The translations under genes were made by a program, and so were the position numbers. This document shows positions 4,374 to 21,675 of a stretch of DNA of 34,872 nucleotides, piece after piece. The notes under the pieces were generated by a model. The model worked only from the letters and a program-made list of their open reading frames with translations, did no database searches and was not told the DNA's origin. This DNA comes from an uncultured Pelagibacteraceae bacterium (GTDB lineage: Bacteria; Pseudomonadota; Alphaproteobacteria; Pelagibacterales; Pelagibacteraceae). Where the stretch lies: contig CACEBD010000006.1 of NCBI GenBank assembly GCA_902557775.1, positions 1-34,872 of the forward strand, read 5' to 3'. How positions within the stretch are numbered: the first letter of the stretch is position 1; every line of letters begins with the position of its first letter.

Positions 4374-5099
4374 ATGATAATTGCATTAATGATAGGACGT
4401 AAGGGCAGCTCAGGTTATCCAAATAAAAATCTAATAAAAATTTTTGGTAAACATTTATGCGAGTATCCTTTAATAGCTGTGAAAAAAACGAAAATGATTT
4501 CAAAAATATTTATTTCAACAGATTGTCCTAAAATTAAGAAAATTACTAAAAAATATAATCCAATACTAATTGAAAGACCAAAATATTTAGCAACAAATTC
4601 TGCTTTAGGAGAGGAAGTATTTAGAGATGCATATTATAAGATCAAGAAGAATTTAAATGGTAAAAAAATTAGCTTGATAGTTTTACTAATGGCTAACGCA
4701 GGAACTATTAATGCTAGTTTGATAAAAAAAGGGATTAATATCCTAAAAAAAAATAAAAAGTACGACTCAGCTGTAACAACATCAGTTTATAATATGTGGA
4801 GTCCTATCAGAGCAAGATCTCTTAAAAATGGGTGTCTTGTTCCTTTCGTTCCTTTTAAATTTATGGGAGGAACAAAAATTAATTGTGATCGGGATGCACA
4901 GGGAGAAGTTCATTACGCAGATATGTCTGCGTCAATAGTAAGACCTAAATGTTTAGAAAATTTAAATGAAGGTTTGCTTCCTCAAAAGTGGATGGGTAAA
5001 AAAATTGCTCCTATAAGAAATGATGCTGGATTTGACATTGATTTTGAGTGGCAACTACCACAATTAAAGTATTGGATTAAAACTAATGGATCAAATTAA
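4374..5099 (+). CDS. Acylneuraminate cytidylyltransferase-family protein
   Basis: 241 aa. The N-terminus 'RKGSSGYPNKNLIKIFGK' is the CTP-binding signature of CMP-sugar synthetases and 'FISTDCPKI' is the following conserved strand. It is the third gene of this superfamily in 3 kb and is distinct in sequence from its two neighbours. The C-terminal 'DAGFDIDFEWQ' resembles the conserved end of the family, where Asp residues bind metal and substrate. It starts directly after the SDR stop codon and overlaps the radical SAM gene by 14 nt. Sugar specificity is unknown. Confidence 0.8.
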   Translation: MIIALMIGRKGSSGYPNKNLIKIFGKHLCEYPLIAVKKTKMISKIFISTDCPKIKKITKKYNPILIERPKYLATNSALGEEVFRDAYYKIKKNLNGKKISLIVLLMANAGTINASLIKKGINILKKNKKYDSAVTTSVYNMWSPIRARSLKNGCLVPFVPFKFMGGTKINCDRDAQGEVHYADMSASIVRPKCLENLNEGLLPQKWMGKKIAPIRNDAGFDIDFEWQLPQLKYWIKTNGSN

Positions 5100-6246
5100 A
5101 ACATATAAAAAAAAAGACAGTTTTGTAAAATTAGAAAACAAAAAAAATTTTGCAATAAACTCTTTAAACAAAACAATTATTACAGCGCTTAATAATGAAA
5201 ATATTATTAATTCATTAAATAATGATGAAAAAGATATTATAAAAAGTCTTAAAAAAGATTTTTTAAATAATTCTCAAAAAAATGATCCAAAGATTTTTAC
5301 GCTTAAAGAAAATACAATTGCAGAAATAAATACTTTTTCAGAAAGTAAAGATATAATTAAATATTTAATTAATAGATATAAATATGAGATATTTCCTGTG
5401 ATTAAAAAAATCAGTGATTATCCTCCATTAGTACAAATTGAACCCTCATCTATATGTAATTTCAGATGCGTATTTTGTTTTGAAACAGATAAAACATTTA
5501 CAGATAAAAAAAGTGGACATATGGGAACAATGAAACTTGAATTATTTAAAAAGATAATTGATGAAATCGAAGGTAAAGTACAATTTGTGACTTTGGCCTC
5601 TAGAGGAGAGCCTTTAGTTAGTAAAGAAATTAATGAAATGATTAAATATACATCGGGAAAGTTTTTAAATTTAAAGATTAATACCAACGCTTCATTATTA
5701 ACGGAAGAAAAAATTCATGCAGTATTATCTAGTAACGTTAAAACAATGGTTTTTTCGGCGGATGCCGCTGACTCAGATTTATATAAAAAGTTAAGAGTAA
5801 ATGGAAGTTTGGAAAAAACTATTGCCAATATAAAAAAATTTAAAGAAATTCACAATAAGCATTATGCGAATAACAAGATCATCACTAGAGTATCTGGTGT
5901 AAAATTTAGCAAGGAACAAAATTTTGAGGAAATGAAAAAACTCTGGGGAGATCTGGTCGATCAGGTAGCTTTTGTAGACTATAATCCTTGGGAAAATAGT
6001 TATGAAAAAAAACCTAATGGCTTATCTACCCCATGCTCAGATTTATGGAGAAGGATGTTTATATGGTGGGATGGAAAAATAAATCCTTGTGATGTTGATT
6101 ATAAGTCTAAACTTTCGGTAGGGAATGTCATGAATAAAAAAATTGATTATTTATGGAATTCTGATTTTTATAACAATCTTAGAAAAAAACATTTAGATAA
6201 TAAAAGACAATCAATATCTCCTTGTAATGCTTGCACCGTAATTTAA
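5086..6246 (+). CDS. Radical SAM/SPASM-domain enzyme
   Basis: 386 aa. The [4Fe-4S]-S-adenosylmethionine motif CNFRCVFC (C124, C128, C131) is intact and is followed by a GEP motif near 174-176. The C-terminal region has four more Cys in a SPASM-like spacing ('STPCSDLW', 'KINPCDVD', 'SPCNAC'), which in this family holds auxiliary iron-sulfur clusters; the protein ends right after the last Cys pair. The first 110 residues are charged, lack recognisable motifs and are unusually long. In glycan clusters such enzymes dehydrogenate, epimerise or deaminate sugars, or supply modified building blocks. Next to a HisC-like aminotransferase and a methyltransferase, radical modification followed by amination of a sugar or amino-acid substituent is plausible. 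Confidence 0.85.
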   Translation: MDQIKTYKKKDSFVKLENKKNFAINSLNKTIITALNNENIINSLNNDEKDIIKSLKKDFLNNSQKNDPKIFTLKENTIAEINTFSESKDIIKYLINRYKYEIFPVIKKISDYPPLVQIEPSSICNFRCVFCFETDKTFTDKKSGHMGTMKLELFKKIIDEIEGKVQFVTLASRGEPLVSKEINEMIKYTSGKFLNLKINTNASLLTEEKIHAVLSSNVKTMVFSADAADSDLYKKLRVNGSLEKTIANIKKFKEIHNKHYANNKIITRVSGVKFSKEQNFEEMKKLWGDLVDQVAFVDYNPWENSYEKKPNGLSTPCSDLWRRMFIWWDGKINPCDVDYKSKLSVGNVMNKKIDYLWNSDFYNNLRKKHLDNKRQSISPCNACTVI

Positions 6247-6248
6247 CA

Positions 6249-7283
6249 GTGAAAACCTTTAATTTAGTTAGAAGATCAAAGCCATTGCTAAGCAGCAGGC
6301 ACAAATATTTAAGACTCGACAAGAATGAGAGGGTATCTAATTTTTCTAAAAACTTTATTAACTTATTTAAAAAGAAGTTAAATTCAGAGAGTTTAAACAC
6401 TTATCCAGAAATTTATGAATTTTATAAATTATTATCTAAAAATCATAAGTTAAAAAAAAATCAATTTTTAGGTACAGCAGGTATAGATACAGGATTAAAA
6501 AATAGCATTGAAATATTTGGGCATAAAAAAATAATTATTTTAGATCCAACTTTTGCAATGATAAATGTTTATTGCAAAATTTTAGGAAAAAAAGTTATAA
6601 AAATTGGTTATGATAAAAATTTAAATTTGCAATTTAAAAAATTAGAAAAAAATATTAATAAGCAAGTATCATTAATTATATTATCAAATCCTAATAGTCC
6701 TACTGGAACTGTTCTAGATTTAAAAAATATAAAAAAAATTTTAGTTAAAGCAGCAAAATATAATATTAATGTCGTAATTGATGAAGCCTATTATGGATTT
6801 AGTGCTGTAACAGCTGAACCTTTAATAAAGAGATACAAGAATCTAATTATTCTACGAACTTTTTCTAAAGCCTACGGATTAGCAGGATTAAGAGTTGGTT
6901 ATATCATTTCTACTTCTAAAAATATAAAATTATACAACAATATAAAACCGATGTATGAGGTGAATTCATTGGGAATATTAGCAGCAAACATTTTGCTTAA
7001 AAATCAATCAATTAAAAAAAAATATTTAAAAGAAGTTCAGGAAGGAAAAAAAATTCTGCTGAATTTTTTTTTAAAAAAAAATATTTATTTTTTAAAATCG
7101 GAAGGTAATTTCATCCTATTTAGATTAAAAAAAAATAAAAATAATTATTTTAGTTTATTTAAACAAAATAAAATTATGATTGTTGAAAAATTGAATCATA
7201 TAAATTTAACTGGGCTATCAAGAATTACACTTGCACCTAAGAAAGAAATTTTAAAATTTATAAAAATTTTAAAAAATTATTAA
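6249..7283 (+). CDS. HisC-like PLP aminotransferase
   Basis: 344 aa from the GTG at 6249. A TTG at 6231 in the same frame would overlap the upstream gene, but the GTG two bases after the upstream stop gives the family's usual N-terminus. Fold-type I aminotransferase motifs are present: 'RLDKNE' near the start, NPNSPTG (about residues 147-153), 'IDEAYYGF' with the PLP-ring Asp, and 'SKAYGLAGLRVGY' with the Schiff-base Lys at about 207. These match the histidinol-phosphate aminotransferase subfamily. The location in a glycan island beside a radical SAM enzyme argues against histidine biosynthesis; similar enzymes occur in nucleotide-sugar, amino-acid and phosphonate clusters. It could supply the amine of an aminophosphonate, but no direct evidence supports that. 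Confidence 0.82.
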   Translation: MKTFNLVRRSKPLLSSRHKYLRLDKNERVSNFSKNFINLFKKKLNSESLNTYPEIYEFYKLLSKNHKLKKNQFLGTAGIDTGLKNSIEIFGHKKIIILDPTFAMINVYCKILGKKVIKIGYDKNLNLQFKKLEKNINKQVSLIILSNPNSPTGTVLDLKNIKKILVKAAKYNINVVIDEAYYGFSAVTAEPLIKRYKNLIILRTFSKAYGLAGLRVGYIISTSKNIKLYNNIKPMYEVNSLGILAANILLKNQSIKKKYLKEVQEGKKILLNFFLKKNIYFLKSEGNFILFRLKKNKNNYFSLFKQNKIMIVEKLNHINLTGLSRITLAPKKEILKFIKILKNY

Positions 7284-8008
7284 TGAAAAGTTTAAATAAA
7301 GCTTATAAGAGTTCAGAAATTGTAAAATATTATGCGAGCAATAGAAACAAATGGTCTGATTTTTATAAATCAGAAAGAAAAATAATAAGTCAATTAAGAA
7401 TTAAAAAAAACTCGACTATTCTTGATATTGGAAGCGCTTGTGGAGGATTAGGCGCTGTCTTAAAAAAACGTTTCAAAGTAAAAAATTACACTGGTGTAGA
7501 AATTAATAAACAAGCTTTTGAGTATGCGAAAATAATTAATAAAAAATTCAAATTTATTAATACAGACCTTTTAAATTATCAAAAAAATGAAAAAAAATAC
7601 TCAAAGTTTGATTTTGTTTTTTCGTTAGGGTGCATTGATTGGAATTTTGAAACTGACAGAATGTTAAAAAAGGCTTGGAAACATGTAAAAAGAAAGGGGT
7701 TTTTAATAATAACATTAAGATTAACTGACATACCTAAATTTAAAAAATCTTATCAATTTATAAATTTTTCAAAAAAACTAAGAGGTGAAAAAGCTTGTTA
7801 TCAAGTTTTATATTTTAGAAAATTATTTAAAAAATTAACAAAATTTAATATTTCAAAAATTTTACATAATGGATACTGGGGAAAAGCTAATCCAACTGTA
7901 ATTACGAGACATAAAAAAATTTTTTTTGTAGCAATGGCTTTAAAAAAAAATACTAATAAAAAAAATATTTATAATTTTAAAAGGCTAGAAAAGATTTTTC
8001 TTTTATAA
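7283..8008 (+). CDS. Class I SAM-dependent methyltransferase
   Basis: 241 aa. Motif I 'ILDIGSACGGLG' (residues 46-57) and a downstream 'TGVEIN' acidic strand define a Rossmann-fold methyltransferase. The start shares one base with the preceding stop (TAATG), which indicates translational coupling with the aminotransferase. Methylation of a sugar hydroxyl, an amine made by the aminotransferase, or a capping group are all possible. No transmembrane segment is visible, so it should act in the cytoplasm on a precursor. Confidence 0.82.
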   Translation: MKSLNKAYKSSEIVKYYASNRNKWSDFYKSERKIISQLRIKKNSTILDIGSACGGLGAVLKKRFKVKNYTGVEINKQAFEYAKIINKKFKFINTDLLNYQKNEKKYSKFDFVFSLGCIDWNFETDRMLKKAWKHVKRKGFLIITLRLTDIPKFKKSYQFINFSKKLRGEKACYQVLYFRKLFKKLTKFNISKILHNGYWGKANPTVITRHKKIFFVAMALKKNTNKKNIYNFKRLEKIFLL

Positions 8009-8013
8009 AATAA

Positions 8014-9378
8014 ATGAGTAGTGAATCTATTTTAAAAAAACAAAAAAAAATTTTATTTTTTGTAAATTATTATGTTAAATCAATGAAAAATAAGATCAAT
8101 GTAGCAAATAGCTCTGTTTGTTATTTTCACAATTATGGAAATTATATAAGTTCTTCATATCTTAAGCTTAAGTTTTTAGGGATAAGATATTATGGAAAGT
8201 TTTTTTTTAATTTCCTTAAAAATTTATATTCAATTATTAATACAGAAAATTATGTGTGTATAAAAAGTAGAAAACAAAAAAAATATAAATATTTATTTAT
8301 TTCTCATGTTTCAAGAAAAAATTTTCAAAAAAATGGCTCTTATAATGATATTTATTTTAGTTTAAATTCAAAGAATTATAAGAACACTCTTTTTTTTTTA
8401 AATTCAATAGATGGGTATTCTCCAAAAAGGGTACAGGATAATTTAATTATTTTCAAAAAAAGAGACAAAAATGCTTCAATCGCCTATCTTTTAAAATATT
8501 TTTTAAAATTCATTATTCATAATAAATTTTCGTTACAAAAATTATTTCATTATTTTAATTTTATGACTGAATTTTCAAATAAAATATTTCCTTATTTATA
8601 TGAGACAGTACAAAAAAATAAATTTAAAAAAATTATAATGTTTTATGAAGCTCAACCTTATCAAAACAATTTTATTAACGAACTTAATAAAAAGAAAATC
8701 AAAACAGAAACAATTGGATATTATCATACTGCTCTTTTGCCGCTACATACAAGTTTAGTTTATAGACAAGGTGCACCAAATAAACTTTTCATTTCTGGAC
8801 AAATCCAAAAAAAATACTGTGAAAAAAACTTAGGATGGCCAAAAAATCGTGTTTTTAATATAGATTCTTTAAGATATTCAAAAAAAAAAAATTTAATACC
8901 TAATAATACAATTTTTTTACCTTACGAAATATCTAGATCAAAAGTTATTTTACAAAAACTTAATCTTTTTTTTAAAAAAGCAAAAAATAAATCATTACCC
9001 TTTTTTAACATAAGAAACCATCCAGCAGCAATAAACTCAAAAAAACATCTTAAATTAATGCAATATATAAAAAAGGTCATTAGTGAAAATGAAGAAAAAT
9101 TTTATAAAAACTCAAAAAAAAAATCAATTTTTATTGGATCAACAACATCAATTATTTTAGCCTTAGAAGAAAAAAAAGAAGTTATCCATATTTGTGAAGA
9201 CCCTGTATTTGATTCATTTAATACAGGAATATGGAAAAATATTGCAGTTACCAAGTTAGATAAATTTATTTTTGAATATAGACTAAAAAAGAATACACAT
9301 ATTCTCAAAATAAACAAAGATAATAAGGATAAAGTCAAAAAATATCTTAAAATTAATGTACAAAAGAATATAAGGTAA
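8014..9378 (+). CDS. Uncharacterised surface-carbohydrate biosynthesis protein
   Basis: 454 aa with no family that can be assigned firmly. The N-terminal half is aromatic- and Lys-rich; the C-terminal half has features of GT-B transferases: '[12 protein letters not shown]', '[14 protein letters not shown]', 'NIRNHPAA' and '[19 protein letters not shown]'. This Arg-x-His-Pro plus Gly-Ser-Thr-Thr-Ser pattern recalls polysialyltransferase- or CDP-glycerol glycerophosphotransferase-like nucleotide-sugar binding. It sits 2 nt upstream of the PEP mutase gene, so it could transfer a nucleotide-activated phosphonate or a CMP-sugar. A 12-base A tract occurs near 8880-8891. The transferase assignment is inference. 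Confidence 0.5.
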
Positions 9379-9380
9379 AA

Positions 9381-10688
9381 GTGAACAATAAAAAAAATAA
9401 AAAAAAAGTTTATGTAGGGTTATCGGCTGATATTCTCCACGAAGGACACATTAATATTTTAAAAAAAGCAAAATCTTTAGGTTTTGTCATCGTAGGATTG
9501 CTTACTGATGAAGCAATTACAACTTATAAAAAATTACCCCATTTGACTTATCATCAAAGAGAAATAGTTTTAAAGAATATTAAGATGGTTGATAAAGTTG
9601 TGCAGCAGAATACTTTAGATTACAGACCAAATTTGCGCAAATACAAGCCAGATTTTGTAGTGCATGGTGATGACTGGAAGAATGGAATACAAAAAGAAAC
9701 TCGAAAACAGGTTATTGAAACACTTAAAAAGTGGTCAGCAAAACTAGTTGAGGTTCCATACACAAAAAATATTTCCTCTTCATTAATAAAAGAGAAAATA
9801 ATGGATACAGGCACTACACCTGAAGTGAGACAACTTAAATTTAAAAGATTGATTAATGTAAAAAAGATTGTGAGAATTTTAGAGGCGCACAGCCCATTAA
9901 GTGCAATGATAGTCGAAAATACAAGTTTAATTAAAAAAAATAAGTTTTATGAATTTGATGGGATGTGGTCATCAAGCTTAACAGACTCTGCCTTAAGAGG
10001 AAAACCAGATAATGAGTCTGTTGATATATCTGCAAGAATGAATACTCTAACTGAAATTCTATCTGTTACAACTAAACCAATCATATTTGATGCCGATACA
10101 GGCGGAAGAAATGAACATCTACCCTATACTGTAAAGGCATTAGAAAGAGCAGGAATTTCAGCAATCATCATAGAGGATAAAATAGGATTAAAAAAAAATT
10201 CATTATTTGAAAATCAATCTAATGCTAAACAAGATAACATAAAGAGTTTTTGTAAAAAAATTAAAGTAGCTGTGAACGCTAAAATATCTGACGATTTTAT
10301 GGTCATAGCCAGAATTGAAAGTTTTATATTAGGTAAAAACTTAACTGACGCTTTAAAAAGAGCAGATGAATATTCTAAGGCAGGAGCCGATGCTATACTA
10401 ATCCATAGTAAAGAAAAAAAACCTAACCAAATAATCCAGTTTTCAAAAAAATTTGCCAATAGTAAATTTAAAAAACCAATAGTTGCGGTTCCTTCTACTT
10501 ACTCATCAACTTATGAAAAAACTTTGCAAAATTCTGGGGTCAATGTGATAATTTACGCTAATCACTTGCTAAGAGCCTCATACCCCTCCATGATGAAAGT
10601 AGCTCAAAGTATACTTAAATATGAAAGATCGAAAGAAGCTGAAAAAGATATAATTCCAATCAAAAAGATTATTTCATTAATTAAATAA
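9381..10688 (+). CDS. pepM: Nucleotidyltransferase-phosphoenolpyruvate mutase fusion
   Basis: 435 aa from a GTG start. Residues 1-140 form a cytidylyltransferase domain with HEGH (20-23) and an ISSSLIK motif (131-137). Residues 160-435 are a PEP mutase of the isocitrate lyase superfamily: DADTGG at 237-242 binds Mg, and '[10 protein letters not shown]' at 265-274 is the signature that separates true PEP mutase (EDKxxxxxNS) from related lyases. PEP mutase converts phosphoenolpyruvate to phosphonopyruvate, the committed C-P bond step. The N-terminal domain probably activates a downstream phosphonate with CTP, a fusion known from surface-phosphonate clusters. Decarboxylase and reductase genes follow within 3.1 kb, which makes the pathway assignment strong. 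Confidence 0.93.
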
Positions 10689-10691
10689 ACT

Positions 10692-11480
10692 ATGAACCAA
10701 AAAGAACTTAACGATTATAAAAAAAATGGATATATAATTTTAAAAAATTTTTTTCAAAAGAGAAAAATTGAAAAAATTAGAACCGAAATAATAAAATTAT
10801 CAAAAAAAAAACAAAATAATCATTTTTATTTCGAAACATTAAGTAAAAGTAATAAAAAAGTTCTTAGAAGAATTGAGAGAATAAGTCAGAATTCAAAACT
10901 AATGAAAAGTTTAATAAGTGAGCAAAGACTAAAAATTGTCTTAAAAAAATTTACAGGATTAAAAAGTTTTTTATTTAAAGATAAATTGAATTTTAAATTT
11001 CCTGGTGCAGGAGGCTTTGATCCTCACATAGATGGACACTTTTTGTGGAAAAATCAAAAAAACATAATTAAAAAAGGATGGTCGGTTTACGGAAAAAATT
11101 TTATCAATGTTGTTATTCCTCTAGAAAAATCAACAATCAAAAATGGTTGTATATATTTAGCAAAAAAAGAATATACAAAAAAATATTTAGGTGATAGTTG
11201 GAATACAATTTCAAAAAAATTAATTAAATTCACTCCAAAATTACAAAATAAATTTTTAAAGAAAATAAAATTTAAACCAATGGAGATGAATCAAGGAGAT
11301 ATTATGTTTTTTGATTGGAAAATAGTTCATCATTCAAAAAAAAATAAAAGTAAAAGATCTCGAATGATTTTTTATGCCACATATATTAATTCTAAAAAAT
11401 CAAAAGAAAATGTTATAAAAAAATATTATCTAGACAAGCTTAAAAGCAAAAATGATTTAAAAGATAAATCTTTAATTTAA
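10692..11480 (+). CDS. PhyH-family Fe(II)/2-oxoglutarate oxygenase
   Basis: 262 aa. A facial triad is visible: H112-x-D114 in 'FDPHIDGHF' and a distal His at 213, followed by S-x-x-N-x-S and Arg224, the 2-oxoglutarate anchor of phytanoyl-CoA dioxygenase-like enzymes. This family includes enzymes that hydroxylate phosphonates (for example PhnY-type 2-aminoethylphosphonate hydroxylases), as well as many on other small molecules. The gene lies between pepM and the phosphonopyruvate decarboxylase gene with gaps of 3 and 10 nt, so a role in phosphonate tailoring is likely. It is not the cupin-type MpnS/HEPD enzyme that cleaves hydroxyethylphosphonate. The substrate is inferred from context. Confidence 0.82.
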   Translation: MNQKELNDYKKNGYIILKNFFQKRKIEKIRTEIIKLSKKKQNNHFYFETLSKSNKKVLRRIERISQNSKLMKSLISEQRLKIVLKKFTGLKSFLFKDKLNFKFPGAGGFDPHIDGHFLWKNQKNIIKKGWSVYGKNFINVVIPLEKSTIKNGCIYLAKKEYTKKYLGDSWNTISKKLIKFTPKLQNKFLKKIKFKPMEMNQGDIMFFDWKIVHHSKKNKSKRSRMIFYATYINSKKSKENVIKKYYLDKLKSKNDLKDKSLI

Positions 11481-11490
11481 TATTTGTTCA

Positions 11491-12609
11491 ATGATAAGTG
11501 TAAATAATTTTGTAAAATTTTTAAAAAAAAATGGTATTAATTTTTTTACAGGTGTTCCAGATAGTGTTCTAAAAAATTTATCAATTCTAATTGATAATTT
11601 TACCTCAAAAAATCATATAATAAGCACCAACGAGGGTAGTGCAGTGGCACTTGGTGCTGGTTACTACTTATCCACAAAAAAAATACCTTTAGTTTATATG
11701 CAAAATTCGGGACTTGGAAATGCGGTAAACCCCCTGATATCTCTTGCTCACAAAAATGTTTATTCAATCCCAATGCTTTTATTAATTGGTTGGCGAGGTG
11801 CTCCAGGTACAAAAGATGAAGTTCAACATCAAGAAAAAGGCAAAATTACAAAAAAAATTCTAAATCTTTTAAAAATTAAAAATATTGAAATCAATAATGA
11901 AAAAGATTTTAAAAAACTTAAAAATTTAATTAAACATTCTAAGGAAAAACTAGAACCCGTTGCATGTTTAATTAAAAAAGAAAAGTTTTTTGTTTCCAAA
12001 AAATTAAATGTACAAAAAAAAAAGAAAAACATCTATACTAACGGTTTAGAAAGAGCATATGTGCTCAAACAAATTCTGAAAAATATAAGAAATAATACTG
12101 ATATAATTTCGACTACCGGATTTACATCAAGAGAGATTCATCAATTAAGATTGGAAAAAGGTTTTAAAAAAGGAAAAGACTTTTATATGGTTGGTGCAAT
12201 GGGCCATTCATCAATGGTAACTTTAGGAAATTCAATTTTTAAAAAAAAAACATCAATTTGTTTAGATGGAGATGGTGCAGCACTTATGCATTTAGGTGCC
12301 TTAGTTACGATGAGTAATTATGGAAAAAAAAATTTAAAATACATATTACTAAATAATAGCTCACATGAATCAGTAGGCGGTCAAAAAACATTAGCTTCAA
12401 AAATAGATTTTCATAAGATTTCAAAAGCATTTAAATTTAAAAAGTACTTTATGTCTCAGTCAATAAAAAATTTTAACATCAAACTAAGTAAATTTTTTAA
12501 ATCAAGTGGGCCAAGTTTTTTTGAGATAAAAATCAAAAATAAAAGTATGCAAAATTTAACTAGACCAAAAAATTTAAAGAATATTAAAAGATTATTTCAA
12601 GATGGATAA
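11491..12609 (+). CDS. Phosphonopyruvate decarboxylase
   Basis: 372 aa, the normal length of the family (aepY/ppd genes). The N-terminal 'FFTGVPDSVLKNL' and 'STNEGSAVALGAGYYL' (TPP-activating Glu48) are diagnostic of phosphonopyruvate and sulfopyruvate decarboxylases. GDG at 260-262 with NN at 288-289 makes the C-terminal thiamine-diphosphate/Mg motif. It decarboxylates phosphonopyruvate to phosphonoacetaldehyde and pulls the unfavourable PEP mutase equilibrium forward. The gene overlaps the following dehydrogenase by 8 nt. With PEP mutase in the same operon, sulfopyruvate is a much less likely substrate. Confidence 0.92.
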   Translation: MISVNNFVKFLKKNGINFFTGVPDSVLKNLSILIDNFTSKNHIISTNEGSAVALGAGYYLSTKKIPLVYMQNSGLGNAVNPLISLAHKNVYSIPMLLLIGWRGAPGTKDEVQHQEKGKITKKILNLLKIKNIEINNEKDFKKLKNLIKHSKEKLEPVACLIKKEKFFVSKKLNVQKKKKNIYTNGLERAYVLKQILKNIRNNTDIISTTGFTSREIHQLRLEKGFKKGKDFYMVGAMGHSSMVTLGNSIFKKKTSICLDGDGAALMHLGALVTMSNYGKKNLKYILLNNSSHESVGGQKTLASKIDFHKISKAFKFKKYFMSQSIKNFNIKLSKFFKSSGPSFFEIKIKNKSMQNLTRPKNLKNIKRLFQDG

Positions 12610-13717
12610 TTATAATTTTAAAAATTTTGATGATTTAAAAAAATTTATTGATCAAAAAAAATTTGAAAAAATATTTTTAATAACAGGTAAAAAATCTTAT
12701 TTTAAATCAGGAGCAGAAAAAAAAATCTCTCCTATATTAAGATTTAAAAAAATATACAATTATTTTAAACTTTCACCTTACCCTGAAATTAAAGAATTAA
12801 AAATAATTATTGATTTAATCAATAAATTTAATCCCGATTTAATTTTAGCTATAGGAGGAGGTTCGGTCATAGACTATGCAAAAATAGCAAAACTTAACAT
12901 CGACTCAAAAAATCTTAAAACAAATATTATTGAAGGTTATAAAGCTAAAAAATGTTTTAAATTAGCTGCTATACCAACTACAGCTGGTTCAGGCGCTGAG
13001 GTTACTGAGAATGCTGTCATTTATATAAATAAAAAAAAATATTCTGTTGAAGGCAGAGAAGTTAAACCTGATTATCATTTTTTAATTCCTGAACTTATAG
13101 TTGATTCTGCTAAAACTATAAAATCTTCAGCAGGATTTGATGCAATTTCTCAAGCCATTGAGTCATTAATATCTATTAAATCGAATAAGAGTAGCGTGAT
13201 GTATGCACAAAAATCATTAAGATTGTCATTAGAAAATTTTGAAAATTTTGTAAACAAACCAAACTATAATAATTCTATGAGAATGAGTATTGCAGCAAAT
13301 TTATCAGGCAAGGCAATTAACATTTCCAAAACAACAGCACCACATGCTTTATCATATCCTTTTACAGCATATTTTGACATTCCACATGGTCAAGCGGTTT
13401 CTTTAACACTTAATGAATTCTTAAAATTTAATTATGATAATCACAAAAAATCTGTTTCAACTTTTGATCTTCAAAAAAGGTTCAAATTAATTTTTGATCT
13501 AGCAAAAGTATCTAATATTAATCAAATGAACACTTTTTTGAAAAAAATCAAATCTAATACTGGCTTAGAAAATAATTTTAAAAAATTAGGTATTTCTATT
13601 AAAAGAGATTATTCAAAAATATTATCGGGGGTTAATATTCAAAGACTAAAAAATAATCCAATAGATTTAAATCAAAATGATATAAAAAATATTTTATTAA
13701 AAAAAAATGAAAATTAA
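12602..13717 (+). CDS. Iron-containing alcohol dehydrogenase, likely phosphonoacetaldehyde reductase
   Basis: 371 aa, group III alcohol dehydrogenase fold. NAD(P)-binding GGGSVIDYAK lies at 85-94, TTAGSGAE at 126-133, and metal-site residues include D180, H248 and H262. In many family members the second ligand is His in a D-A-x-x-H-A-I-E motif; here it is Gln (Q184, 'GFDAISQAIES'). It follows PEP mutase and phosphonopyruvate decarboxylase, so the expected reaction is reduction of phosphonoacetaldehyde to 2-hydroxyethylphosphonate, as by PhpC-type enzymes. The 8-nt overlap with the decarboxylase and 11-nt overlap with the next gene support one operon. The reaction is inferred from context plus family. 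Confidence 0.85.
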   Translation: MDNYNFKNFDDLKKFIDQKKFEKIFLITGKKSYFKSGAEKKISPILRFKKIYNYFKLSPYPEIKELKIIIDLINKFNPDLILAIGGGSVIDYAKIAKLNIDSKNLKTNIIEGYKAKKCFKLAAIPTTAGSGAEVTENAVIYINKKKYSVEGREVKPDYHFLIPELIVDSAKTIKSSAGFDAISQAIESLISIKSNKSSVMYAQKSLRLSLENFENFVNKPNYNNSMRMSIAANLSGKAINISKTTAPHALSYPFTAYFDIPHGQAVSLTLNEFLKFNYDNHKKSVSTFDLQKRFKLIFDLAKVSNINQMNTFLKKIKSNTGLENNFKKLGISIKRDYSKILSGVNIQRLKNNPIDLNQNDIKNILLKKNEN

Positions 13718-14228
13718 TAGAAAAAAAGGTATTTTATTTTGGATTACAGGTCTTTCTGGATCAGGAAAAACATCTTTAGCTAAAAAAATCAAAAAAGATA
13801 TATCAAAAAAGTATGGACCGACTATCGTTATTAGTGGCGATAATTTGAGAAAGATTTTTAATCTTAATAAATACGACTATCATTCAAGATTAACCAATAT
13901 GCAAAAATTTTTAAAATTTTCAAAATTTATAACAAATCAAAAAATTAACTTAATATTTGCTGTAGTTGGACTTATTGATAAACCGAAGATATGGGGAAAA
14001 AGAAATATTGATAATTTTGTCGAGATTTTTATTAAAACAAACATTAAAAAAATTTTAAAAAAAAATAAAAAAAAAATTTATAAAAAAAATAAAAATATCG
14101 TTGGCCTTACTATAAAACCTGAATTTCCAAAAAGATATAATATAATTTTACGAAATAATTTTGATAAATCGTTAGAATTATTGTCAAAAGATTTACTTAA
14201 AAAAATATTTTTTCAAATTAAATTATAA
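13707..14228 (+). CDS. Adenylylsulfate kinase-like (CysC-fold) kinase, divergent
   Basis: 173 aa. The P-loop GLSGSGKT (15-22) and 'SGDNLRK' (about 43-49) are those of APS kinases. The usual substrate-binding 'F-I-S-P-Y-R' loop is replaced by 'FAVVGLIDKPKIWGK', a pattern seen in divergent CysC homologues of polysaccharide clusters. One of these, from Campylobacter capsule loci, phosphorylates the 3'-hydroxyl of CDP-phosphoramidate rather than APS. True APS kinase making PAPS for the neighbouring sulfotransferase-fold protein is the simple reading, but no ATP sulfurylase is visible. A 3'-kinase acting on a CMP-phosphonate is an alternative suggested by the overlap with the phosphonate operon. 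The C-terminal half is extremely Lys-rich. Confidence 0.72.
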   Translation: MKINRKKGILFWITGLSGSGKTSLAKKIKKDISKKYGPTIVISGDNLRKIFNLNKYDYHSRLTNMQKFLKFSKFITNQKINLIFAVVGLIDKPKIWGKRNIDNFVEIFIKTNIKKILKKNKKKIYKKNKNIVGLTIKPEFPKRYNIILRNNFDKSLELLSKDLLKKIFFQIKL

Positions 14229-14232
14229 CTTA

Positions 14233-15306
14233 ATGAAAATAATTGTTTTATTAGCTGGAATGACAAGAGGGGGCATTGATCTTTTTCAGAGCTTGTTAGA
14301 CAATCACCCTCAAATATCACAGTTACCAGGAAAATTTTATGTTGATGATTTTTTAAAAAAGATAAATAAAAATTTTACTAGTAATCAAATAGCTGATCTT
14401 TTTATCAAAGAATATAAAGAGTACTTTGACTCAAGATTGAACATAATAGAAAGACATAATAATTTAGGGCCAAAAAAAAATGAATTTTATATTATAGATG
14501 AATACAAATTTAAGAACAAGTTTATAGATTTATTTAAAAATAAAAACTTTGAAAAAAAAAATATAATTTTAAATTTACATTTAGCTTACTCTTTTGCAGC
14601 AGGGGAAAATATTCAAGATAAAAAAATTCTTATTCTACAAATTCATCATTTTTTTAGAATACAAAGTATTGTAGAGCTAGATTTTGATATAATTTGCACA
14701 ATAAGAGATCCCATAGCTTCCCATTCTTCATATGTTAAAAATTTAGCTACATTTAATAAAAAACTTATTAATCCATGGCAATATTATTATCATATTGAAA
14801 GAAACTTTAGTCATATAATTAATCTTAGTAGACTAAATAAAAATATTAATGTTATTAAACTAGAACGTTTACATAAAAACAACTCCGATGTAATGCAAAA
14901 ATTTTGCAAGATATATAAAATTAATTATATTAAAACCTTAAACTCATCAACTTTTCAAGGAAAGCTGTGGTGGGGAGATCAAGTGAGTAAAAATTATCTC
15001 AACGGTATAAATAAAAAATTTGAGAATAAAATTGATTACAGTTTATTTTTTAAAAGTGATATTGAAACTATAGAGTATTTCTTAGAAAATTTTATAAAAT
15101 CATATAATTATACGTTTAAAACTAACAAACAATTTTTTAGAATGAAAAAATATTTACCCTTTAAGGTTGATCAGATCATATTTTTACAAAGTTTAAAAAA
15201 ATTAAATATAAAAAATTTAGCACTATGTATTTATTATTATTTTAAAAGATTAAAGCTATTAAATAAAAAACTTTTAGATATGGCTCAATATCCTTCAGAA
15301 ATTTAA
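14233..15306 (+). CDS. Sulfotransferase-fold protein, atypical P-loop
   Basis: 357 aa. The N-terminus 'LLAGMTRGGIDLFQSLLDNH' aligns by eye with the 5'-phosphosulfate loop of bacterial sulfotransferases (usually G-x-P-R-S-G-T-T), but S-G-T-T is replaced by G-G-I-D. A 3'-phosphate-binding segment 'CTIRDPIASHSSYVKN' is present at about 153-168, with Arg156 and Ser residues in the expected spacing. The family moves a sulfonyl group from PAPS to hydroxyls of sugars. The gene starts 4 nt after the CysC-like kinase, so kinase and transferase probably form a donor/transfer pair. The altered loop could reflect a different donor group. It ends about 24 bp before the rfbF remnant. Confidence 0.68.
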   Translation: MKIIVLLAGMTRGGIDLFQSLLDNHPQISQLPGKFYVDDFLKKINKNFTSNQIADLFIKEYKEYFDSRLNIIERHNNLGPKKNEFYIIDEYKFKNKFIDLFKNKNFEKKNIILNLHLAYSFAAGENIQDKKILILQIHHFFRIQSIVELDFDIICTIRDPIASHSSYVKNLATFNKKLINPWQYYYHIERNFSHIINLSRLNKNINVIKLERLHKNNSDVMQKFCKIYKINYIKTLNSSTFQGKLWWGDQVSKNYLNGINKKFENKIDYSLFFKSDIETIEYFLENFIKSYNYTFKTNKQFFRMKKYLPFKVDQIIFLQSLKKLNIKNLALCIYYYFKRLKLLNKKLLDMAQYPSEI

Positions 15307-16604: not shown

Positions 16605-17492
16605 ATGAAATTTTTATTGCACCTTGCAAAACATCTTAAATCATTTATTTTTTACCCCTTTAAAACTACTAATTGGTTTGCAAAAGATTTAAAAAAAGAT
16701 ATTTTTTTTAAAAATACAATTTCTAAATACAGATTCGTTTGGTGCGCAGGATTACCAAAGTCAGGAACAACTTTAATTGAAAATATCTTTGATTATTTAC
16801 CTTACGTAAGATTTAACTCATCAATTTTAAGAATATATGACACAAGAAATTTAGATCATGGACATGGTATTTCAGATAAAATGTTTACTAATATTCCTGA
16901 AAACAAATACACATTTTTAAAAACACATACTCACTTTTCAAAAAAATATGAGGATATTGCAATTAAGAAAAATGCAAAAATAATTATTTCAGTTAGAGAT
17001 TTAAGAGACATGTTAATTAGCAGATATTATCATATTAAATCAGATCAAAATCATTGGCTTCATAACAAATTAAAAAATTTAAATTTTTCTGATGGTTTCT
17101 TAATATCTTTAAAAGAAAAACCCCCATCTAGCTCAGAGAATTCATTAACATACTATTATTTTTGGATAAAAAATTGGATTTTAGAAGGAAAGAAAAAGAA
17201 TTATTTAATACTTTGGTTTGAAGAATATAAAAAGGAACCAATAAAATATATTAATAAAATTTTGGAATATACTGATAACAAAAATTTTTCTGCCGAAAAA
17301 ATTTACGATAATATAAAGAATAATAGAAATACCAATAATCTTTCTCAAGGATTAAAAAATTACGGAAGATCTAAGAGTACTTTTAGAAAAGGTGCAGTGG
17401 GCGAGTGGTATAAATTATTTGATAATAAAATTTCTAGTTATTTTTATAATAATATACCAGGAGATATAAAAGATATAGAATTTGATAATTAG
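16605..17492 (+). CDS. Sulfotransferase (PAPS-type)
   Basis: 295 aa with all three classical motifs. The 5'-phosphosulfate loop GLPKSGTT is at 49-56, 'KTHTH' near 106-110 holds the likely catalytic His, and the 3'-phosphate site 'SVRDLRDMLISRYYH' is at 129-143. A late R-K-G-x-x-G-x-W motif (about 261-268) contacts PAPS in cytosolic-type sulfotransferases. It should sulfate a hydroxyl on a sugar or lipid. It is unrelated in detail to the sulfotransferase-fold protein at 14233. The last codons overlap a truncated kinase fragment, and the C-terminus is somewhat short after R-K-G, so the extreme 3' end may have been replaced by a recombination junction. Confidence 0.86.
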   Translation: MKFLLHLAKHLKSFIFYPFKTTNWFAKDLKKDIFFKNTISKYRFVWCAGLPKSGTTLIENIFDYLPYVRFNSSILRIYDTRNLDHGHGISDKMFTNIPENKYTFLKTHTHFSKKYEDIAIKKNAKIIISVRDLRDMLISRYYHIKSDQNHWLHNKLKNLNFSDGFLISLKEKPPSSSENSLTYYYFWIKNWILEGKKKNYLILWFEEYKKEPIKYINKILEYTDNKNFSAEKIYDNIKNNRNTNNLSQGLKNYGRSKSTFRKGAVGEWYKLFDNKISSYFYNNIPGDIKDIEFDN

Positions 17493-17817
17493 AAAAAAAC
17501 ATAATGATTGGGATTTTTCTAATGCAGGAAGAATCAGGCAGGCTGAAAGAATGAGAGATCTTACTGATAATTTTCTCAGAATGGGAAATAACGTAGTAGC
17601 AGATTTTATATGCTCTACACCAGAATTAAGAAAATTGTTTAATCCAAATTTTACTGTATGGGTAAATACAATTGAAAGTAGCAGGTTTAGTGATACAAAT
17701 AAAGTATTCGTAAAACCAACAAAAATTGATATTGAGGTTAAAACAAAATATGCAGATTATTGGGCGCCTATAGATGCAAAAAAAATTAATGAGATAAATC
17801 AAATTCAAATTATTTAA
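17482..17817 (+). pseudogene. N-terminally truncated kinase fragment, paralogue of 20902-21675
   Basis: 111 codons, openable only from a TTG inside the sulfotransferase gene. 'NDWDFSNAGRIRQAERMRDL', 'VADFICSTPE', 'VWVNTIESSRFSDTNKVFV' match the kinase domain of the intact protein at 20902-21675 almost segment by segment. The first 35 or so residues, including the ATP-binding P-loop, are missing, and so is the whole C-terminal nucleotidyltransferase domain. Without a P-loop it cannot be a kinase. It ends 1 nt before the GmhA-like gene. The most likely origin is a recombination that fused the 3' end of the sulfotransferase gene to a second copy of the kinase gene. Confidence 0.75.
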
Positions 17818-20319: not shown

Positions 20320-20394
20320 GGGCATGTAGTTCAGTGGTAGAACGCTTCGTTGACATCGAAGAGGTCATAAGTTCAATTCTTATCATGCCCACCA
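20320..20394 (+). tRNA. tRNA-Val (anticodon GAC)
   Basis: Full cloverleaf of 75 nt with encoded CCA. The acceptor stem GGGCATG pairs with CATGCCC. The D arm has AGTGGTAGA, the anticodon stem CTTCG/CGAAG holds the loop TTGACAT (anticodon GAC), and the T arm is ATAAG-TTCAATT-CTTAT. GAC reads GUC and GUU valine codons. It lies 13 nt after galE and 63 nt before 5S rRNA, so it probably belongs to the rRNA-side transcript. Confidence 0.95.
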
Positions 20395-20457: not shown

Positions 20458-20573
<116 letters not shown>

Positions 20574-20901: not shown

Positions 20902-21675
20902 ATGAAAAAAAAAATTTTAATAATGGGTTTACCAGGAGCAGGAAAGACTTATTTAGCAGAAAGACTTGCTCCTTTATTAGACGCTAACTGGCTAAATGCT
21001 GATAAAGTTAGGAAAGAAGCTGATGATTGGGATTTCAGTCCAGAAGGGAGACAAAGACAAGCTAACAGAATGAAAAATTTAGCTGAAAAATCTATAGTCT
21101 CTGGAAAACATGTAATAGCAGACTTTGTTTGCCCCACTCCAAAAACAAGAGATGATTTTCAAGCAGATATAACTATTTGGATGGATACAATTTCCGAAGG
21201 TAGATTTAAAGATACAAATAAAATGTTTGTACCTCCAGAAAAATATGATTTTAGAATTAAAGAAAAAAATGGAGAAATTTGGGCAATGAAGATTTCAGAT
21301 AAAATTCAAGAATATCAATGGGACAACAAAAAACCCACAGCACAGATGCTTGGCAGGTGGCAACCATGGCACATTGGACATCAAAAATTATTTGAAGAAA
21401 TAATAAAAAAAACTGGTCAAGTAAATATTATGGTTAGAGATGTTCAAGGAGTGGGAGATAATCCTTTTGATTTTGATTCTGTAAAAAAAAATATTGAGAG
21501 TGCTTTAGTTGATTTTAAAAAAAGAGTAAAAATTACTTTAGTTCCTAATTTAACAAATATTTGTTACGGAAGAGGAGTTGGTTATAAGATTGAAGAAATA
21601 GTTTTAGACGCAAATACTCAAAAAATTTCAGCTTCTAAAATTAGAGATAAAATGAGACAAGAAGGAAAACTTTAA
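20902..21675 (+). CDS. CysC-like kinase fused to HIGH-motif nucleotidyltransferase
   Basis: 257 aa with two domains. Residues 1-140 are a P-loop kinase (GLPGAGKT at 9-16, 'NADKVRKEADDWDF', 'VIADFVCPTP') related to adenylylsulfate kinases. Residues 145-257 are a cytidylyltransferase-like domain with 'GRWQPWHIGH' (HIGH at 157-160) and a C-terminal ISASKIR (242-248), as in NMN adenylyltransferase-type enzymes. Annotation pipelines often call this adenylylsulfate kinase, but the kinase lacks clear APS-binding residues and the second domain suggests paired phosphorylation and nucleotidylation of one small molecule. It stands alone between cox subunit IV and pntAA, about 70-80 nt from each. A truncated copy of the kinase half lies at 17482-17817. 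Confidence 0.8.
   Translation: MKKKILIMGLPGAGKTYLAERLAPLLDANWLNADKVRKEADDWDFSPEGRQRQANRMKNLAEKSIVSGKHVIADFVCPTPKTRDDFQADITIWMDTISEGRFKDTNKMFVPPEKYDFRIKEKNGEIWAMKISDKIQEYQWDNKKPTAQMLGRWQPWHIGHQKLFEEIIKKTGQVNIMVRDVQGVGDNPFDFDSVKKNIESALVDFKKRVKITLVPNLTNICYGRGVGYKIEEIVLDANTQKISASKIRDKMRQEGKL

Follow-up and report, generated by a model that had tools for sequence, protein, structure and literature searches.

The stretch of DNA analyzed here (the window; 34,872 nucleotides from an uncultured Pelagibacteraceae bacterium) contains a phosphonate operon placed among sugar genes. A 5S rRNA gene (20459..20573, + strand; Rfam RF00001, 93.8 bits), adjoined by a tRNA-Val gene (20320-20394), forms the conserved edge of a hypervariable surface-glycan region, with low-GC glycan genes upstream; toward the other border of such a region, the 23S rRNA, the contig starts within the region. 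The surface-glycan island beside 5S rRNA recognized in an earlier note, made from the sequence alone, thus agrees with HVR2 and its 5S rRNA boundary as described in PMC2217521. The source genome assembly is 82% complete, which bears on every genome-wide absence reported below.

The cassette consists of full-length open frames in a run on the + strand, as seen in the ORF list of the window: a cytidylyltransferase-PEP mutase fusion (pepM, 9381..10688), a PhyH-type Fe(II)/2-oxoglutarate oxygenase (10692..11480), a phosphonopyruvate decarboxylase (Ppd/AepY, 11491..12609), and an iron alcohol dehydrogenase-type reductase (Fe-ADH, 12602..13717). The earlier note had the mutase, decarboxylase, and Fe-ADH following one another with overlaps. 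The succession does not hold, as a complete gene of 262 amino acids, missing from that account, separates the mutase from the decarboxylase; the overlaps are confined to Ppd and Fe-ADH (8 nt) and to Fe-ADH and the APS-kinase-like gene that follows it (11 nt), while gaps of 3 nt and 10 nt separate pepM from PhyH and PhyH from Ppd, respectively. Because the order pepM-Ppd(-Fe-ADH) is found again in many genomes of the order, the gene arrangement is above chance. The comparison set comprised 397 genomes (42 with pepM and 355 others), and cassette content was compared among 41 pepM loci, the window counted in.

The protein families and catalytic motifs can be read directly from the translated genes. 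The mutase domain of the fusion (residues ~154-435; PF13714) scores 372.2 bits against the TIGR02320 cut-off of 319.55 and has the EDK-X5-NS motif, and the N-terminal nucleotidyltransferase domain (residues ~8-140; PF01467) has the HEGH motif, both as previously noted. Together with HxGH and a C-terminal ISSS/ISST motif, this N-terminal domain makes the protein a fusion of the type of Fom1 from the fosfomycin pathway of Streptomyces wedmorensis, in which the cytidylyltransferase (CyTase) is likewise fused N-terminally to PEP mutase. The closest solved relative of the fused domain is the CTP:2-hydroxyethylphosphonate (HEP) domain of Fom1 (5x3d), with 76 of 133 residues identical (57%) in an ungapped alignment and HEGH retained; this domain makes CMP-HEP in fosfomycin biosynthesis, and PF01467 domains are fused to 23.6% of Ppm enzymes (PMC6697681). 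Both domains of the fusion were matched in 41 of the 397 genomes (its own included) and the mutase alone in 1 more. HxGH is replaced by HEAH in L038, the island most closely related to that of the window. Among 71 phage and 357 plasmid records no match to the fusion reached 60% identity; the top long matches, at 48.6% and 46.4%, came from an unannotated phage-collection record and from Segatella copri, respectively.

The decarboxylase scores 379.4 bits against TIGR03297 (cut-off 312.5) and contains the GDG...NN thiamine diphosphate motif, in agreement with its initial identification. The Fe-ADH, also found where it had been placed, matches PF00465 and PF25137. Against the phosphonate-ADH equivalog TIGR03405 it scores 124 bits, far under the cut-off of 423.7, so its assignment as a predicted phosphonoacetaldehyde reductase forming HEP is based on synteny and family. 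Relatives occur in 25 of 41 other stretches, with the operon conserved, and Gln184 is present in 26 of 26 sequences, at a position usually occupied in this family by a metal-binding His.

The genes expected for other end products were searched for in the whole assembly. A SAR11 query for the class V 2-aminoethylphosphonate (AEP) transaminase (AEPT) gave no match in the 82%-complete genome, and TIGR03301 gave a single 27-bit fragment that is not convincing as an AEP transaminase, in a search that also yields matches in 14 of 14 control genomes. A lack of transaminases is thus borne out for class V only, since a class I/II (HisC-like) aminotransferase is encoded at 6231-7283, upstream of the cassette. 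This enzyme could make 2-aminoethylphosphonate, a reading that would account for a PLP aminotransferase in the island and for a 43% identical copy in L038. We consider it very unlikely: the best match is a histidinol-phosphate transaminase model, under the cut-off of that model, the best 25 of 71 matches include no model of an AEP transaminase, a homologue is found in 1 of 41 other stretches, and the Fe-ADH, the expected user of the same aldehyde, is present. Neither MpnS nor PhnJ was found in the genome as assembled, which contains one PhnY-like gene.

The methylphosphonate route through MpnS shares pepM, Ppd, and the reductase up to HEP with the window. MpnS is found near pepM in four related loci (L053, L058, L059, and L064), and with 82% of the genome assembled one could suppose that methylphosphonate is the product and that MpnS lies in the unassembled part. 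All four MpnS loci, however, have a free second CyTase beside pepM whereas the window has the fused domain only, and together with the lack of an MpnS match in the genome this makes the supposition highly improbable.

The distribution of free CyTases follows the type of cassette. The 41 loci include 24 with Fe-ADH only, 10 with AEPT only, 2 with both, and 5 with neither; a second, free CyTase occurs in 15 of 16 loci with AEPT or MpnS versus 0 of 25 others. In the tree, the free CyTases fall mainly in two separate clades and the fusion from the window is placed outside the AEPT-type clade. A Campylobacterales contig encodes a free-type CyTase fused to AEPT, and in L071, a locus where AEPT and the reductase occur together, the reductase gene is overlapped by an additional free CyTase that belongs to the HEP-type branch. 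Based on this distribution, the clades, the AEPT fusion, and the extra CyTase of L071, the comparison suggests that the fused domain serves HEP and that dedicated enzymes activate the other end products. Activation by CTP and the HEP branch itself, both put forward in the earlier note, appear well supported at the level of sequence comparison, because Fom1 is the nearest solved relative, a predicted reductase is in the operon, and class V transaminase and MpnS were not found in the assembly.

The end point of the pathway is a different question, and it depends on the oxygenase gene (PF05721). Its best NCBIfam match is the PhnY-type methylphosphonate hydroxylase NF052437, at 73.9 bits compared to a cut-off of 500. 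The residues H112, D114, H213, and R224, which provide the HxD...H facial triad and the distal Arg, are invariant in 12 of 12 sequences, and the predicted structure (pLDDT 88.3) has the PhyH fold. Relatives are concentrated in genomes with pepM (14 of 42 versus 3 of 355 others), and the gene adjoins pepM in the window, L042, L052, and L069 in differing arrangements. A loop after HxD is present in 7 of 7 HEP-type and 0 of 7 AEPT-type sequences, where 4 of the 14 branch labels were taken from the genome rather than the linked locus. The best tree separates the two types with support 80/83 (unstarred) when G209 is counted among the HEP-type sequences and the distant sequences G234 and G111 are dropped; a first tree test, with G209 (nested among HEP-type sequences) left out and two distant sequences included, rejected the HEP-type sequences as one clade (p-AU 0.0035).

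Because an oxygenase encoded between pepM and ppd tracks both pepM genomes and branch type, the claim of a pathway ending in HEP holds for the branch, but HEP as its end product is doubtful. HEP would be activated with CMP and transferred as such if the oxygenase were a chance neighbor in the operon that tailors glycans, for example a sugar hydroxylase. The core HEP gene set is present, the operon lies among sugar genes, PhyH enzymes also act on amino acids and natural products, and 22 of the 26 loci with Fe-ADH lack an oxygenase of the cluster of the window in the stretch fetched (L050 has a weaker PhyH-profile match ~9 kb from pepM). The concentration of the oxygenase in pepM genomes, its varied arrangements beside pepM, and the difference between HEP and AEPT types argue against such a coincidence, and we regard HEP as the final product as rather unlikely. 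The predicted role of the oxygenase is most likely hydroxylation of HEP at C1, either as the free compound or once it is activated with CMP. A comparable reaction is known from dehydrophos biosynthesis, where the 2-oxoglutarate oxygenase DhpA converts HEP to 1,2-dihydroxyethylphosphonate; the comparison is one of reactions, and dehydrophos is a small molecule.

On balance we lean slightly toward a Fom1-type phosphonate module of the HEP branch in a SAR11 surface-glycan island, in which the oxygenase most likely hydroxylates C1 and the product is CMP-activated and moved to a surface glycan or glycoprotein. Which substrates are used, how the last steps are ordered, and what the product and the acceptor are is inferred as follows. 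The mutase domain would convert PEP to phosphonopyruvate, from which Ppd would form phosphonoacetaldehyde by decarboxylation; reduction of this aldehyde by the Fe-ADH-type enzyme would yield HEP. The oxygenase would then hydroxylate C1 of HEP or CMP-HEP, most likely giving 1,2-dihydroxyethylphosphonate; the fused cytidylyltransferase would form the CMP ester of the phosphonate, and a transferase would pass the activated phosphonate to the surface glycan or glycoprotein.

The fosfomycin pathway has the same first three steps as the cassette, with Fom2 as Ppd and FomC as the reductase to HEP, and continues with the methylase Fom3 and the epoxidase Fom4. Given the same activation domain, the cassette might be thought to make a free, secreted antibiotic of this type, which we hold to be quite improbable. 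None of the 22 island ORFs of at least 90 aa, all of them scanned against one library or more, matched a B12 radical-SAM methylase or a cupin epoxidase, and the sole radical SAM protein is of SPASM type (5086-6246). Unlike the fosfomycin module, the genes of the window include a PhyH-type oxygenase and lie in a glycan island of a SAR11-type bacterium.

Transfer of the phosphonate to a glycan is plausible, and the search for the transferase yielded no protein that could be named. Directly upstream of pepM, the protein encoded at 8014..9378 (+ strand) has no Pfam match; its predicted structure (pLDDT 91.3) matches GT-B-type chains at Z 9-11, and it appears to be a GT-B-like glycosyltransferase. 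Its homologues are no commoner with pepM (3 of 42 genomes versus 24 of 355 others), so it was rejected as the CMP-phosphonate transferase and is considered a gene of the island rather than of phosphonate loci. The profile of its family (25 sequences) gave two chance-level matches to solved structures. A second GT-B-like family (F46; 4 sequences), found near pepM in L047, L053, and L063, gave no match to solved structures, and profile comparisons gave 4.9% (hhalign probability) with the Segatella CDP-glycerol transferase, 13% with the 8014 family, and 2% with the window ORF 1-831.

Most of the cassette is of an already known kind. Acker et al. (2022) reported pepM in SAR11 and Prochlorococcus, with SAR11 pepM amid glycan genes, proposed phosphonylated glycoproteins, and gave the route PnPy-PnAA-HEP (PMC8931226). 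The terms cytidylyl, nucleotidyltransferase, and dioxygenase are absent from the main text of that article, where the fused CyTase, the free-CyTase rule, and PhyH therefore appear not to be discussed. Nucleotidyl activation of phosphonates for cell-surface tailoring is known from the Pnt systems of Rice et al. (2019); the assays of that study concerned AEP-using enzymes of the PF12804 type, in contrast to the PF01467 type of the window, which has no AEP transaminase (PMC6697681). Lockwood et al. (2022) described MpnS in Pelagibacterales; the neighbors named there include glycosyltransferases, and a further one, termed 'adenylyltransferase', is possibly the free cytidylyltransferase of these loci. 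The word cytidylyl is absent from the main text of that article, and a link to PhyH appears not to be drawn (PMC9381506).

While the core is known biology, the oxygenase gene suggests an extra hydroxyl on the phosphonate, and a C1-hydroxylated phosphonate, if real, would be a target for 31P surveys. Methane production in the sea draws on phosphonates, which account for 20-25% of high-molecular-weight dissolved organic phosphorus (PMC8931226, PMC9381506), and SAR11 is one of two groups named as potentially significant producers (PMC8931226). Genomes could be used to map makers of methane precursors and makers of other compounds, provided that the product can be told from the cassette type, namely reductase, transaminase, or MpnS with a cytidylyltransferase particular to each. 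As a tentative extension, possible rather than probable, SAR11 surface-glycan phosphonates might be switched by cassette swaps among HEP, dihydroxyethylphosphonate, methylphosphonate, and AEP with possible C1-hydroxylation or B12-dependent methylation, with one CMP-activating enzyme per product. The window would then represent the 1,2-dihydroxyethylphosphonate type of a serotype-like trait under selection by phages or grazers.

The run continues downstream with an APS-kinase-like P-loop kinase (13707..14228, + strand; PF01583), which overlaps the reductase gene by 11 nt and scores 116.4 bits against the PRK05541 subfamily, just under the cut-off of 127. Its homologues occur in 54 of 397 genomes at E <= 1e-12, genomes without pepM included; at E < 1e-35, a cut-off picked after the list was viewed, 11 of 23 matches are in pepM genomes, an enrichment. 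A role as a phosphonate kinase was set aside, as the gene is common elsewhere and the genome encodes ATP sulfurylase at another place, which makes glycan sulfation the simpler and probable, if uncertain, role. The next gene (14233..15306, + strand) encodes a sulfotransferase-like protein (Sulfotransfer_3, 20.9 bits, under the cut-off) with homologues in L038 (46%) and L056 (26%).

The phosphonate cassette in the window is real and for the most part of a known kind. Its four genes lie on the + strand and encode a cytidylyltransferase domain (CyTase, PF01467) fused to PEP mutase (PepM; 9381-10688; TIGR02320, 372.2 bits against a cut-off of 319.55), a PhyH-family oxygenase of 262 aa (10692-11480), phosphonopyruvate decarboxylase (Ppd; 11491-12609; TIGR03297, 379.4 bits against a cut-off of 312.5), and an iron-alcohol-dehydrogenase-family protein assigned by family scan (Fe-ADH; 12602-13717). 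The earlier note had recognized the mutase, decarboxylase and dehydrogenase, all of which are present, but overlooked the PhyH gene between the first two. In the alignment, all 26 Fe-ADH proteins carry Gln at a position where the family usually has a His metal ligand; judged by eye, a Segatella copri "phosphonoacetaldehyde reductase" has Gln there too.

The best solved relative of the fused CyTase domain is 5x3d (76 of 133 residues identical, gap-free), an entry titled phosphoenolpyruvate phosphomutase that we take to be the N-terminal domain of Fom1. The Fom1 domain is described as converting CTP and 2-hydroxyethylphosphonate (HEP) to CMP-HEP (PMC6697681), which lends direct precedent to the earlier suggestion that HEP is activated by CTP. 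The fusion itself is a known architecture, since 23.6% of PEP mutases are stated in the same source to carry fused PF01467 domains.

Using the fusion as a query against 397 genomes of the order (E <= 1e-30), we obtained matches in 42, of which 41, including the window's own genome, cover both domains and one (G385) covers the mutase only. Stretches around pepM were taken from the 41 other genomes (loci L038-L078) and their ORFs were grouped; the island closest to that of the window is L038. Among the 42 rows, window included, Ppd occurs in 39, Fe-ADH in 26, and a class V 2-aminoethylphosphonate transaminase (AEPT) in 12. When L078, which has no fused pepM, is left out, 24 of the 41 rows have Fe-ADH only, 10 have AEPT only, two have both (L069, which holds two pepM, and L071), and five have neither. 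Contig ends truncate many of the stretches, so that gene absences are soft. In a tree of the full-length fusions, from which L065 was excluded as a long branch, 11 fusions from AEPT loci lie on one side of a branch (support 99/98) and the window lies on the other, where the AEPT locus L074 also falls; a tree of the mutase alone agrees, there with 12 rows (100/98).

A second, free-standing CyTase is found in 15 of the 16 rows that have AEPT or methylphosphonate synthase (MpnS), the exception being L069, compared to none of the 25 others (Fisher's p 2.5e-10, which is overstated because the rows are not independent). MpnS was identified in L053, L058, L059 and L064 through its match to 6b9s (367 bits). 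The free CyTases form two separate clades, one from MpnS loci and one from AEPT loci (100/98 and 100/99). Read most simply, these sequence comparisons assign HEP to the PepM-fused domain and give any other end product an activating enzyme of its own. The HxGH motif of the fused domain is kept in 37 of 42 sequences; it reads HxAH in L038 and L077, while L064 (which has MpnS), L065 and L074 (which has AEPT) lack its first His. Because the fused domain is the only CyTase of the phosphonate cassette in the window and its HEGH is intact, we expect the cassette to activate HEP or a closely derived compound.

The window's genome (82% complete) yielded no match to MpnS or PhnJ and no SAR11-type AEPT, with TIGR03301 matching one 27-bit fragment, in agreement with the earlier statement that a class V transaminase is absent. 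A HisC-like aminotransferase in the island (6231-7283) scores best as histidinol-phosphate transaminase and has a homologue in one of the 41 other stretches (L038, 43%).

Several related loci depart from the common arrangements. The AEPT-type locus L071 (5098-6646, 11204-11596) has two free CyTases, one belonging to the AEPT clade and the other, which overlaps an Fe-ADH gene, grouping with the fused domains of HEP-type loci; the cell possibly makes two phosphonates. In L035, a Campylobacterales contig, an AEPT carries at its N-terminus a fused CyTase of the AEPT-clade type (6783-7628, the fusion being cut by the contig end) directly after CyTase-PepM and Ppd. The CyTase domain of the PepM fusion looks degenerate in L065 (9314), which lacks the first His, and in L062 (9244), which differs at its C-terminal end; neither AEPT nor MpnS was seen in the two fetched stretches, and these are possibly decaying cassettes. 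Seven AEPT-type SAR11 loci (L067, L068, L069, L072, L074, L075, L077) contain a B12-binding radical SAM protein, whose scanned copy (L074) is nearest to Sden_1168/PhpK P-methyltransferases, below cut-off, which suggests a further methylated aminophosphonate.

The best NCBIfam match of the PhyH protein is PhnY-type methylphosphonate hydroxylase, at 74 bits far under the cut-off of 500, and it is the sole PhnY-like match in the window's genome. Its H112, D114, H213 and R224 are invariant across 12 aligned sequences, as fits an active Fe(II)/2-oxoglutarate enzyme, and structural matches of its model (pLDDT 88.3) are PhyH-type hydroxylases. PhyH matches (E <= 1e-8) occur in 17 of the 397 genomes, namely 14 of 42 with pepM versus three of 355 others (p 1.3e-12, uncorrected for relatedness); the three are G209, where a contig end truncates the match, and the distant outliers G234 and G111. 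Among Fe-ADH rows, a PhyH of the window's cluster lies in the fetched stretch of the window, L042, L052 and L069, adjoining a pepM each time, and is absent from the fetched stretches of the other 22; L050 has a weaker PhyH-profile match ~9 kb from pepM, and in genome G176 PhyH and pepM share a contig at a distance of ~25 kb. A loop of ~10 residues after HxD is present in all seven HEP-type PhyH rows and in G209 and in none of the seven AEPT-type rows, where the type of G176, G236, G384 and G114 is taken from the genome's pepM locus and not from a linked locus. The PhyH tree splits by type at a non-significant support of 80/83; a preceding test with another set of rows had rejected this split.

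PhyH is predicted most likely to hydroxylate C1 of the phosphonate. A matching hydroxylation of HEP is carried out by DhpA in dehydrophos biosynthesis. Since Fom3 acts on CMP-HEP, PhyH may by analogy act after CMP activation. 2-Amino-1-hydroxyethylphosphonate has been reported in Bdellovibrio membranes, as cited in PMC12366243. As far as our searches of an open-access library show, the PhyH link and the free-CyTase rule are new; we do not claim priority because Lockwood 2022 (PMC9381506) already lists an "adenylyltransferase" near pepM/mpnS.

The window is the entire contig C6 (34,872 bases) of a 957,653-base genome in 23 contigs. Positions 1-20306 hold consecutive + strand genes with a GC content of 20-28%, among which domain and family scans identify epimerases, CMP-sugar-type cytidylyltransferases, a radical SAM protein, an aminotransferase, glycosyltransferases and sulfotransferases; the island ends at tRNA-Val and 5S rRNA, with genes beyond at ~28-34% GC. 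This layout of low-GC glycan genes up to the 5S is the same as in SAR11 hypervariable region 2, described for HTCC1062 as a 48-kb surface-gene region from 23S to 5S (PMC2217521). The kinase part of the gene at 20902-21675, beyond the 5S, shares 46% identity over 102 aa with a 111-aa ORF on the opposite, island side (17482-17817). Recombination at the edge of the island probably left this ORF behind as a truncated copy.

In L066 and L068, both of the same genus, no more than ~1 kb separates an AEPT-type pepM accompanied by PhyH from the 5S rRNA; the other 39 fetched stretches yielded no 5S. The HEP-type pepM of the window also falls in this variable region, ~10 kb from its 5S, which suggests that close relatives carry different phosphonate cassettes there. 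Further pepM loci are found at other sites, e.g., a few genes or fewer from a PhoR-like sensor kinase (L047, L051, L053, L058, L059; the scanned copy, from L051, is under the PhoR cut-off), followed in four of these five by what by eye is a phosphate-binding-like protein; phosphate-linked control and an insertion hotspot are candidate readings.

SAR11 pepM clusters have been reported among glycan genes, and phosphonylated glycoproteins have been proposed from Prochlorococcus fractionation (PMC8931226). No transferase for the activated phosphonate could be named in the window. The ORF upstream of pepM (8014-9378) has a GT-B-like fold (model pLDDT 91.3; Z up to 11.3 with UDP-GlcNAc 2-epimerases, 10.7 with TarL and 9.5 with polysialyltransferase); considered as the transferase, it was rejected because its family does not occur more often in genomes with pepM than in those without. 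On a Segatella copri plasmid (L131, 7278-12752), PepM with CyTase and an extra N-terminal stretch (669 aa), Ppd and phosphonoacetaldehyde reductase are directly followed by a protein annotated as CDP-glycerol glycerophosphotransferase family, a candidate phosphonate transferase of the chemically right kind, and a GT-B-like family that neighbours pepM in certain SAR11 loci may resemble it.
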